A DNA stretch of 64,000 nt from Candidatus Saccharimonadota bacterium (GTDB lineage Bacteria; Patescibacteriota; Saccharimonadia; Saccharimonadales; UBA4665). Positions 5,390 through 35,484 of the stretch are shown one piece after another (the first letter of the stretch is position 1; each line of letters begins with the position of its first letter). A program made the position numbers and the translations under genes. The notes beneath the pieces are model-generated. The model saw only the letters and a program-made list of their open reading frames with translations, was not told the DNA's origin and did no database searches. Location: positions 248,001 through 312,000 of the forward strand of contig JARIHC010000004.1 in assembly GCA_029288485.1 (NCBI GenBank), read 5' to 3'.

Positions 5390-5445
5390 TCCCACTTTCG
5401 TCCTTCCAGGACTCATCAGCGTGAATACGCATTCACGGAGTAGGA
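5390..5445 (-). ncRNA. Hammerhead ribozyme B (type III)
   Basis: Read on the minus strand all parts of a hammerhead are present: helix III 5' strand CCTAC, cleavage triplet CUC, stem I CGTGAAT-GCGT-ATTCACG (7 bp), core CTGATGA (5413-5419), stem II GTCC-TGGAA-GGAC, core GAAA (5396-5399) and helix III 3' strand GTGGG with one G-U pair. Stems I and II are closed by loops and helix III is open, so it is type III. Predicted cleavage is between 5438 and 5437. It lies in the 3' untranslated region of the gene at 5572-6111. Confidence 0.95.
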
Positions 5446-6111: not shown

Positions 6112-6144
6112 TTTCTCTTCCTCCTCGTGCCCGGCTGGTATGCC

Positions 6145-6240
6145 TCTAGCGTTAAGCTAGCGTGTGTTTTCTGTCTAACACACAAGGTGAGGGGTAAAGC
6201 CACCACCCCTGTAGATAACCTTACTGCTCACCTTGTGCAG
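6145..6240 (-). promoter_or_regulatory. Structured 5' leader of cassette B with competing hairpins
   Basis: On the minus strand a perfect 11-bp stem (6227-6237 with 6181-6191) encloses a 35-base loop. Immediately downstream, AACACAC (6177-6183) pairs with GTGTGTT (6162-6168), and a third hairpin CTAGC-gttaa-GCTAG occupies 6146-6160. The first two stems share bases 6181-6183, so they cannot both be complete, as in a two-state switch. A promoter-like region with TTGACT and TATAGT lies further upstream (about 6285-6330). It does not match a riboswitch class I know. Confidence 0.55.
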
Positions 6241-7003: not shown

Positions 7004-7063
7004 TTTCCCACTTTCGTCCTTCCAGGACTCATCAGCATGAATACGCATTCATGGAGTAGGAAA
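7004..7063 (-). ncRNA. Hammerhead ribozyme C (type III)
   Basis: On the minus strand: helix III 5' strand TTTCCTAC, cleavage triplet CUC, stem I CATGAAT-GCGT-ATTCATG, core CTGATGA (7029-7035), stem II GTCC-TGGAA-GGAC, GAAA (7012-7015), helix III 3' strand GTGGGAAA. The second pair of stem I is A-U here but G-C in copies A and B, a compensatory change that supports the fold. Predicted cleavage is between 7054 and 7053. It ends the 3' region of the gene at 7265-7477. Confidence 0.95.
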
Positions 7064-7154
7064 AGATTTGTGAAAGAGTATAAAGATCAAATAAGGGATG
7101 GGAATGAGTTGTTATAACTCAACGTCATATTATTTTTTCTACTCTTCACAAACT
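7064..7154 (-). ncRNA. Folded spacer between hairpin and hammerhead C
   Basis: The two ends of this stretch pair on the minus strand: AAAGTTTGTGAAGAGTA near 7154 pairs, with small bulges, with the stretch TACTCTTTCACAAATCTTT near 7065. An inner hairpin GAGTT/AACTC lies in the middle. Cassette A has the same arrangement at 13120-13225 with different bases in the paired arms, so the fold rather than the sequence is kept. Confidence 0.6.
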
Positions 7155-7218
7155 TTCTTCCCCTCAGGGCTCCATACCGATTGGTATGAACTTCTTATTC
7201 CCTGAGGGGGTGTTCGTA
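7155..7218 (-). ncRNA. Conserved 64-nt stem-loop, cassette C copy
   Basis: This 64-base block is identical to 13060-13123 in inverse orientation. On the minus strand CCCCTCAGGG pairs with CCCTGAGGGG (10 bp), an asymmetric internal loop follows (11 bases against GAG), then the inner stem CATACC-AATC-GGTATG. It starts 46 bases after the stop of the gene at 7265-7477 and precedes hammerhead C. Identity extends through loops and unpaired bases. Confidence 0.9.
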
Positions 7219-13059: not shown

Positions 13060-13123
13060 TACGAACACCCCCTCAGGGAATAAGAAGTTCATACCAATCG
13101 GTATGGAGCCCTGAGGGGAAGAA
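13060..13123 (+). ncRNA. Conserved 64-nt stem-loop, cassette A copy
   Basis: Identical to 7155-7218 (other strand). CCCCTCAGGG (13069-13078) pairs with 13109-13118; inner stem CATACC (13090-13095) with GGTATG (13100-13105) and tetraloop AATC. It is followed by a long imperfect stem (about 13120-13225) and hammerhead A. Confidence 0.9.
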
Positions 13124-13224
13124 GGTATGTGAAAAGTAAGAAAAACGGTAGTAATGGAAGTTTGTTTGAGCTATTTCTAGCTCCTCCCATTACTTACTGA
13201 ACCACCTTACTTCATCACACTACC
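13124..13224 (+). ncRNA. Folded spacer between hairpin and hammerhead A
   Basis: The ends pair: GGTATGTG and GTAAG on the left with CTTAC and CACACTACC on the right. Inside, GTAGTAATGG pairs with CCATTACTTAC and GAGCTA-TTTC-TAGCTC forms a hairpin. Cassette C has the same arrangement with different bases in the arms. Confidence 0.6.
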
Positions 13225-13284
13225 TTTACCACTCCGTGAATGCGTATTCACGCTGATGAGTCCTGAAAGGACGAAAGTGGGAAA
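13225..13284 (+). ncRNA. Hammerhead ribozyme A (type III)
   Basis: Helix III 5' strand ACCAC, cleavage triplet CUC with cut after 13234, stem I CGTGAAT-GCGT-ATTCACG (13235-13252), core CTGATGA (13253-13259), stem II GTCC-TGAAA-GGAC (13260-13272), GAAA (13273-13276), helix III 3' strand GTGGGAAA with one G-A mismatch. All invariant core bases are present. Confidence 0.96.
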
Positions 13285-34014: not shown

Positions 34015-34479
34015 TTATTGCGATAGAACTTTCTCAGTTAGGAATCCATCGATATCCGGATGCAGATTATCCGGAAGCCGAGTAAACCAATCCAGCTTGG
34101 CAGCTTCATGGTTAGGCTTGATTTCGCCTTCGTATTCTGCCAGAAAAGCAATGCTTACAGGCGAGTGCCAGCCATTTTTAATGTGGGTTGGATATTCGAT
34201 ATAACCGATTGATTCAGCACTGGTTATTTTTACGCCCAATTCCCTTTCACCAACCCGCCGAACCGCCTCTAATAAACTTTCGCCGTAAAAAACTGTCCCG
34301 CCGGGTAGATGCCACAAGCCTTTGCACGGCTCAATATCGCGCAGACTGAGCAGCACACCTTTATCTGACTTTATAACTAGGTCCACGCAAAGCCGCGGCA
34401 CCTTGCTATAGATGCTGTCGAACTCTTCTTTGGTTAATGGGTAGTCCTTGCTGAATTTTGTCATCTTGGCTTTCATCAT
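34015..34479 (-). CDS. Nudix hydrolase, GDP-mannose hydrolase-like, 154 aa
   Basis: The Nudix region reads LPGGTVFYGESLLEAVRRV followed by GERELGV. The first Glu of the classic REUXEE core is Val and the usual second Glu is Arg, the kind of divergence seen in GDP-mannose mannosyl hydrolases (Gmm/WcaH), whose N-terminal pattern (LTKEEFDSIYSKVPRLCVDLVI) it also matches. It may hydrolyse a nucleotide sugar. The start is uncertain among several close ATG/GTG codons (34464-34491). Confidence 0.8.
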   Translation of the reverse strand: MMKAKMTKFSKDYPLTKEEFDSIYSKVPRLCVDLVIKSDKGVLLSLRDIEPCKGLWHLPGGTVFYGESLLEAVRRVGERELGVKITSAESIGYIEYPTHIKNGWHSPVSIAFLAEYEGEIKPNHEAAKLDWFTRLPDNLHPDIDGFLTEKVLSQ

Positions 34480-34504
34480 AACATCGCACACCTATATAAG
34501 TAGC

Positions 34505-34561
34505 TATATTCTTTCGACTTGAACTTCCCAAGTCTCATCAGACGCTAAGCGTAAGAATATA
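34505..34561 (-). ncRNA. Hammerhead ribozyme D (type III)
   Basis: On the minus strand: helix III TATATTC with GAATATA plus the U-A core pair, cleavage triplet CUU, short stem I ACGC-TTA-GCGT, core CTGATGA (34535-34541), stem II GACTTG with CAAGTC, GAAA (34512-34515). The core is fully conserved while all three stems differ in sequence from copies A-C, so this is an independent example and not a recent copy. Predicted cleavage is between 34553 and 34552. It lies downstream of the gene at 34689-35357. Confidence 0.9.
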
Positions 34562-34604
34562 TTAGCAAGTCTCGAGCTACTGATGTAGTAGCGAGGCTTG
34601 CTAA
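34562..34604 (-). other. Strong stem-loop next to hammerhead D
   Basis: TTAGCAAG (34562-34569) pairs with CTTGCTAA (34597-34604); inside, CTCG pairs with CGAG and CTACT with AGTAG, giving about 17 bp around a 5-base loop. It stacks directly on helix III of hammerhead D. Further pairings (TCTGC/GCAGA) lie between it and the stop codon at 34689. Confidence 0.75.
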
Positions 34605-34688
34605 GCTAACCCGCTTCACGTTTTTGCCATAAGGCTCACGCTGGTCTCTGCCAAAATAAGCAGAACGGGGTAAAGCGACCATGCCCAC

Positions 34689-35357
34689 CTAAATTGCTTC
34701 TTGCTCTTCAGTCTCTGATAGATCAGTGAAGTGTTTTACCACTACTCCGATCAATATAACCGAGACGATGATCAAGTTGTAGGTGGTGTGGTACAAGGTT
34801 GACTCAGACACTCCTCCTTCAAAATAGAAGTGAGTAAAAGCTAGTCCAGCAAAGGAAATTGCTATTCCAGCCGCTATGGGTACTCCAGCCAGCAGACTGT
34901 GAACCAAGCCAAAAGCCAGGCTTCGCAGAGTGCCATCCCACCAATCACCAGTGCCTTCACGGAAGATTTTCTCCTCGATGCTGGCAAGGTAAGGCAGATT
35001 CAGCAAAAACAACAGCCCAAAAGCCACCCCGAAGTACTTGATTTGGAATGGGACAACGTTAATATTTGGGCTTTCGCCTGGGTTGTCTTTCCCCTTTCCT
35101 ACGAGGTTCCACCACGACCATCGAAACAAACCGCCAGCCTTCCATAGAAATGCAGCCACAAGCAGAACCACTGCAAGGACCCCAAATGCCTGGAGAAGCA
35201 CAAGCGGCCTAATATCTGCATATATATGCAGATTAGCAGCAACCTGCCCTTCCGTGATGTTTAGCACCAGGCTGAGGGTCAGGAACAAGCACCAGACGAA
35301 GTAAAGAACCGACTTCATAGGGTTCTCGCCGAGATCATCCTCGGTACGGTCAGGCAT
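34689..35357 (-). CDS. Cassette D membrane protein, unknown function, 222 aa
   Basis: The ATG at 35357 is preferred because GGAGAG lies just before it. Five hydrophobic segments (for example SVLYFVWCLFLTLSLVLNI, LLQAFGVLAVVLLVAAFLW, VAFGLLFLLNLPYLA, VPIAAGIAISFAGLAFTHFYF, LIIVSVILIGVVVKHF) and an acidic C-terminus. No family recognised. Codon choice again departs from the neighbours (CTT, GTC, GGG). Its transcript has a structured leader of about 90 nt and a 3' part with stem-loops and hammerhead D, the same plan as cassettes A-C. Confidence 0.8.
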   Translation of the reverse strand: MPDRTEDDLGENPMKSVLYFVWCLFLTLSLVLNITEGQVAANLHIYADIRPLVLLQAFGVLAVVLLVAAFLWKAGGLFRWSWWNLVGKGKDNPGESPNINVVPFQIKYFGVAFGLLFLLNLPYLASIEEKIFREGTGDWWDGTLRSLAFGLVHSLLAGVPIAAGIAISFAGLAFTHFYFEGGVSESTLYHTTYNLIIVSVILIGVVVKHFTDLSETEEQEAI

Positions 35358-35414
35358 AACTCTCCAGTCACTAGAAATTGACAATTAGTAGCAACCTAAG
35401 TATCACAACTTAAA

Positions 35415-35484
35415 GAACGAAACTGCTGCGAAATCTTCGCGTCGTTCACATATACAATTATACCATAAACGGAATATTAGGCAA
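35415..35484 (-). promoter_or_regulatory. Promoter and leader hairpin of cassette D
   Basis: TTGCCT (35479-35484) and TATAAT (35457-35462), 16 bp apart. The transcript then forms a hairpin (outer stem GAACGA 35442-35447 with TCGTTC 35415-35420; inner GCGAA with TTCGC). The leader is about 90 nt long. Confidence 0.7.

Follow-up and report, generated by a model that had tools for sequence, protein, structure and literature searches.

Is a sequence-divergent hammerhead motif behind a membrane-protein gene a ribozyme, and what would it do there? The question touches an older one. Why bacteria and phages carry hammerheads is called unknown in the literature and has been asked for more than a decade. 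According to Perreault et al. (2011, PMC3088659), prophage hammerheads adjoin small genes of no constant identity, have been proposed to cut long transcripts into single-gene mRNAs, and cleave both in vitro and in E. coli. Our literature search, of incomplete coverage, found no paper linking hammerheads to Patescibacteria. The window analyzed here (the whole stretch of 64,000 nucleotides, from a tiny, Saccharibacteria-type bacterium with a genome of 0.91 Mb in 9 contigs) carries hammerheads A (5390-5445, minus strand), B (7006-7061, minus), and C (13226-13284, plus), which form a related family, and the divergent motif D.

Results

Hammerhead D has a complete core and three paired stems

D occupies positions 34505-34561 on the minus strand and was identified as a type III hammerhead, with stems III, I, and II and a complete core, by descriptor, fold, covariance models, and a base-by-base check. 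Read along the minus strand, it consists of the 5′ strand of stem III (UAUAUUCU, 34561-34554), H17 (U at 34553, giving the triplet CUU), stem I (ACGC/UUA/GCGU, 34552-34542), the core segment CUGAUGA (34541-34535), stem II (GACUUG/CAAGUC with the loop GGAAGUU, 34534-34516), the core segment GAA (34515-34513), and the 3′ strand of stem III (AGAAUAUA, 34512-34505). From this anatomy, cleavage is predicted after H17, between 34553 and 34552 of the minus strand.

Perreault et al. (PMC3088659) define hammerheads by the core positions, the A15.1-U16.1 pair, H17, and the pairs flanking the core, and D has every one of these core features of the type III class. The base-by-base check found C3 U4 G5 A6 U7 G8 A9 and G12 A13 A14, A15.1-U16.1 as A34512-U34554, a residue other than G at H17 (U at 34553), and intact core-adjacent pairs (N10.1-N11.1, G34534-C34516; N1.1-N2.1, A34552-U34542). 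Helices III, I, and II comprise 8, 4, and 6 bp, all perfectly paired, and stem III is open. Together with the hairpin that precedes D, these stems are exactly those of the minimum free energy and centroid folds (RNAfold), with a fold energy of z = -3.4 that was equalled by 1 of 200 shuffles. The core, the three stems, and the CUU cleavage triplet (U34553 as H17) claimed for D in a preliminary description are thereby confirmed.

Like Rfam family RF00008 (Hammerhead_3), D has an open stem III, the core CUGANGA/GAA, the A15.1-U16.1 pair, and a NUH site; it differs in its stems and loops, and the loops show no familiar tertiary contact. Its loops, UUA and GGAAGUU, are unlike those of the family, and inspection revealed no clear pairing between loop I and loop II, the contact associated with fast cleavage. 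The weak features of D are the CUU triplet, a stem I of just 4 bp with a 3-nt loop, and the lack of a recognizable contact between the loops. Its stem II pattern was not found in viral contigs.

D is recovered by models built without it

A descriptor of the core and three stems matched A, B, C, and D only in the 64-kb window. In 150 Markov-simulated windows, the same descriptor gave a single match with stem III of at least 3 bp (about 0.007 per window) and none at 4 bp or more, as against the 8 bp of stem III in D.

D was not among the Rfam matches in a 301-nt search, even at E ≤ 10, and it falls short of the RF00008 gathering score of 48.5 bits, which is a curation cut-off and not a mechanistic criterion. 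Since A-C and the other clade hammerheads tested also stay under this cut-off, Rfam is uninformative as an arbiter of D. Covariance models trained without D did find it. A model built from six hammerheads of the same genome gave D 16.8 bits (E 0.018), the next match in the window after D scoring 12.5 bits. With a model from 103 clade matches, D reached 27.4 bits (E 1.4e-5) and was the sole match in the 64-kb window besides A-C. Judged from these sequence comparisons, D belongs to the hammerhead class as a genuine, divergent member and is a predicted ribozyme.

Hairpin and genes flanking D

An imperfect hairpin of about 17 bp (43 nt; 34562-34604, minus) lies 0 nt from the 5′ strand of stem III. 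It scores 27, and none of 300 shuffles exceeded 26. The hairpin was described earlier as standing in place of the 64-nt hairpin. It is indeed present at D, and flush, whereas the 64-nt hairpin occurs at B and C only and, as corrected here, lies further 5′ without abutting the ribozyme. The two 64-nt copies (about 7150-7210, minus, and 13060-13125, plus) are near-identical and have no counterpart at A; each precedes a second hairpin that touches the ribozyme or comes close to it. An ordinary terminator was rejected for the D hairpin, which has no T-run; the scan reported none on the minus strand.

The upstream gene (34689-35384, minus) encodes a multipass membrane protein of 231 aa. The 222-aa gene noted before exists as the ATG form of this reading frame, starting at 35357. 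Its stop at 34689 is located 127 nt 5′ of D on the same strand, the distance typical of the class being 80-130 nt. Between stop codon and hairpin (34605-34688, minus), nested hairpins seem possible by eye. A promoter-like site, recognized by consensus match only (TTGCCT, 16 nt, TATAAT, with TG before the -10 box), lies at 35457-35484 on the minus strand. Downstream, a NUDIX-domain gene (34015-34491, minus) has an in-frame ATG at 34479, 25 nt past the ribozyme; it has too few homologues for an empty-site comparison. The minus-strand scan showed neither a promoter-like nor a terminator-like site between the two genes, and a cut at D would therefore split a two-gene transcript. No prophage was seen around D in the window.

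The membrane protein and its homologue

The protein upstream of D contains EEKIFRE, FGLVH, and HTTYN, corresponding to the motifs EExxxR (EExxFR), FxxxH, and HxxxN. By these motifs it resembles the CPBP/Rce1-like glutamic intramembrane proteases, to which its family matches are sub-threshold: the Pfam PF02517 search gave no match for the protein itself and 18.6 bits, under the cut-off of 22.4, for a homologue that keeps all three motifs. No homologue was found in 60 relatives, in a set of genome contigs, or in viral contigs, and 198 genomes of the order yielded this one, at 38% identity. The gene is thus held by two genomes only, one of them without the ribozyme. A distant relative of the protein (L064:441-1193, minus) occurs in a hammerhead array of another genome (G001), with no recognized hammerhead behind it.

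At the homologue's locus there is no hammerhead. Instead, a strong hairpin followed by TTTTG comes directly after the stop codon and looks like a terminator, a reading made by eye of a hairpin that the scan (loops ≤ 8) did not list. The homologue does without the ribozyme, which is therefore not indispensable to the gene. Stem covariation was to be sought among homologues of the 222-aa gene; the single one found lacks the hammerhead, and covariation was seen among the clade hammerheads instead.

The layout recurs across relatives, Patescibacteria, and viruses

About 100 hammerheads were found in 27 of 93 genomes of the same family, up to 26 in one genome, and hundreds of unrelated sequences in relatives and phages show the same layout. 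All three stems covary in the 103-match alignment: 93.2% of cells are paired, compared with 66.7% when shuffled and 29-44% when slid, and double changes in stems number 523 versus 169 in controls. The matches listed from a search with the exact core pattern, which is not a census, fall mostly in Patescibacteria of many lineages, Nanosynbacter-labelled genome bins (L141 and L185) included, and further matches lie in at least 120 viral contigs.

At most family hammerheads, a same-strand open reading frame stops about 80-130 nt 5′. Among the matches listed, such a frame lies within 30-300 nt 5′ at 93 of 114 complete hammerheads in named genomes and at 47 of 72 in viral contigs. A helix abutting stem III on its 5′ side exceeds the shuffled 95th percentile, where about 5% would be expected, at 37 of 97 loci in the Saccharibacteria family and, among the matches listed, at 42 of 108 other genome loci and 45 of 67 in viral contigs. 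The gap between this helix and stem III is most often zero. Therefore, the flush hairpin of D represents a general arrangement. The earlier argument that one architecture built from independent sequences points to selection is borne out by the roughly 100 relatives, the covariation, and the enriched abutting helix.

In phage-type contigs, for instance at the viral loci L233, L290, L307, and L316, a gene is again followed by a hairpin, AGTGTCTTCAAAGACACT, and a hammerhead, with zero gap between hairpin and stem III. At another locus (L193), one 30-nt imperfect palindrome occurs twice, once close to the start of the gene and once immediately ahead of the hammerhead. In Saccharibacteria RYN_414 (G001), six same-strand hammerheads within 15 kb (L064:1-15201) form a cassette-like array, with a different orphan gene before each.

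With 4 homologous pairs among 94, hardly any of the linked proteins are related to one another; few match a family, and most are orphans. That a membrane-protein gene precedes the ribozyme holds for D itself, whereas roughly one in two linked proteins lacks any hydrophobic segment. In a search that did not pick genomes for their ribozymes, homologues of another ribozyme-linked protein turned up in 2 of 92 genomes, with a hammerhead in both. Among the matches listed, GC3 of the linked gene is above that of its neighbors in 61 of 69 genome loci (60 versus 43; L115-L229) and in 26 of 29 viral loci (L230-L349). High expression was rejected as the cause, because ribosomal genes do not share the raised value, their GC3 being like that of the rest of the genome. 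Extra mRNA folding beyond codon usage was likewise set aside: the effect, stronger-looking with 8 shuffles, was modest at best with 20 (p = 0.06). The gene at D has a GC3 of 52.6, which is ordinary and not raised (window mean 50.3, sd 5.1), and no leader/3′-end pairing run scoring 8 or more. These two traits and its stem I of 4 bp make D an atypical member of the recurring layout.

Predicted pairing between leader and 3′ end

In dozens of other units, the helix next to stem III is not local: the 3′ end of the mRNA is predicted to pair over a long range with the 5′ leader of the same transcript. The segment adjoining stem III (TGTCTGCTTGTCA in one case) is perfectly complementary to a leader segment of the same gene (TGACAAGCAGACA). 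The pairing sequences differ among units (TAGCACAGGATGAA, TGACAATCCGTTC, ATTGACAAGAGA, and others) and are always matched within a unit. Pairing scores of at least 12 were reached by 33 of 177 units against 2.8 in mismatched pairs, and scores of at least 14 by 13 of 177 against 0. Within the window, the leader of gene A, TTGACAAGCAGAC (6252-6231, minus), complements GTCTGCTTGTTA (5462-5443) next to hammerhead A, a long-range version of the abutting helix.

The match could be an RNA end pairing or a DNA-level repeat. A test of G-U against A-C on the leader and 3′ arms did not separate the two; RNA-level pairing is favored because the arms are placed inside promoter and ribozyme. The matching is consistent with selection that keeps the end of the mRNA closed in a helix.

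Leaders of hammerhead-linked genes also share a structured element that resembles RAGATH-10 (RF03147; window 6116-6240, minus; L064:14127-14205; L066:3951-4026). All matches here are under the Rfam cut-off: 33.5 and 29.1 bits in leaders of one relative's hammerhead-linked genes and a weak 20 bits in the leader of gene A. D has none.

Discussion

The computation shows directly that the motif is there, that it is not a random match, where it lies, that a hairpin adjoins it without a gap, and that the layout recurs and covaries in relatives. On this basis, the reading we prefer, and regard as fairly probable, is that D is a functional divergent hammerhead in the 3′ UTR, whose co-transcriptional cleavage would give the mRNA a hairpin-capped 3′ end in place of a terminator. 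RNA polymerase would start at the promoter near 35457 and transcribe the gene, the hairpin, and then the ribozyme, which would cut the transcript after U34553. The upstream mRNA would end in a strong hairpin and a 9-nt tail with a 2′,3′-cyclic phosphate, an end that should withstand 3′ exonucleases. The downstream piece would begin with a 5′-OH and carry the NUDIX cistron. Hairpin and hammerhead together would thus take the role of a terminator hairpin, making and protecting the mRNA end and here also separating two cistrons. Cleavage in vivo, protection of the end, and co-transcription with the NUDIX gene are what we infer from this arrangement. As with an intrinsic terminator, a hairpin comes soon after the stop codon, and the homologue has a terminator-like hairpin in that place; in contrast to one, the D hairpin has no T-run, and its end would arise by predicted self-cleavage and carry a cyclic phosphate.

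Could D instead mark where a mobile gene cassette ends on its 3′ side, the cassette being made of promoter, leader, orphan gene, hairpin, and hammerhead, whose ribozyme would produce unit-length or circular RNA as in retrozymes? We think this unlikely. Unrelated orphan proteins, patchily distributed genes, arrays of up to six same-strand units in 15 kb, and, among the matches listed, a linked-gene GC3 of 60 versus 43 in 61 of 69 loci that high expression does not explain would fit such cassettes. However, no shared end sequence, integrase, reverse transcriptase, or recombinase is tied to the units. Their arms vary in sequence and sit inside promoter and ribozyme, and therefore do not bound a unit. 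Each gene has a single ribozyme, with no second one for excising a circle, and the gene at D has a genome-like GC3. Retrozymes and viroid-like circular RNAs also use type III hammerheads; in those, either the genome is circular or each end bears a ribozyme, whereas D is one ribozyme 3′ of a gene with its own promoter-like site.

Ribozymes put into 3′ UTRs reduce expression in other systems. A regulatory ribozyme, lowering expression by destabilizing the upstream mRNA or tuning the NUDIX cistron, would suit the NUDIX start codon, which is only 25 nt from D, so that cleavage would set the 5′ end of that cistron. We nevertheless give this reading a small chance: a hairpin set right against the cut site seems suited to protection and is met with repeatedly, and the gene next downstream of a hammerhead lies on the same strand about as often as it is convergent (49 versus 44), so that the downstream gene is not a constant partner.

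It is less probable still that D was once a hammerhead and has since decayed or lost its activity. The CUU triplet, the minimal stem I and loops, the distance from its own family, and the missing ribozyme at the only homologue found would agree with decay, which should also have cost D pairs or core bases, as it has some family matches; yet D shows zero substitutions at core positions and three perfectly paired stems. Chance resemblance, with which the absence of D from Rfam at any threshold used would accord, is ruled out with near certainty by descriptor counts (well under 0.01 matches expected per window) and independent covariance models (E 1.4e-5), to which the flush hairpin adds.

Compared with the prophage hammerheads in the accessible text of Perreault et al. 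(PMC3088659), the flush-helix rule, the matched leader/3′-end pairing, the codon-composition bias, and the reach through Patescibacteria appear to be new, none of them being met with there. Tentatively, and with some reserve, we propose that in Patescibacteria and some phages alike, the mRNAs of a distinct class of accessory, GC3-rich orphan genes are built with the help of a ribozyme. A hammerhead would form the 3′ end directly behind a helix, which would be a local hairpin in some units and, in others, a duplex of the 3′ end with the leader, giving a closed-loop (panhandle) mRNA. D would have arrived at the local-hairpin version independently. From the matches between leader and 3′ end, closed-loop mRNAs are to be expected in bacteria. 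Should D and its relatives produce mRNA 3′ ends next to a flush helix, the model specifies where the cut falls, what chemistry the end has, and which helix partners it, and the question of what hammerheads do in bacteria and phages becomes testable. If true, this would be an unrecognized style of gene expression in Patescibacteria, whose transcription and RNA decay have hardly been studied.
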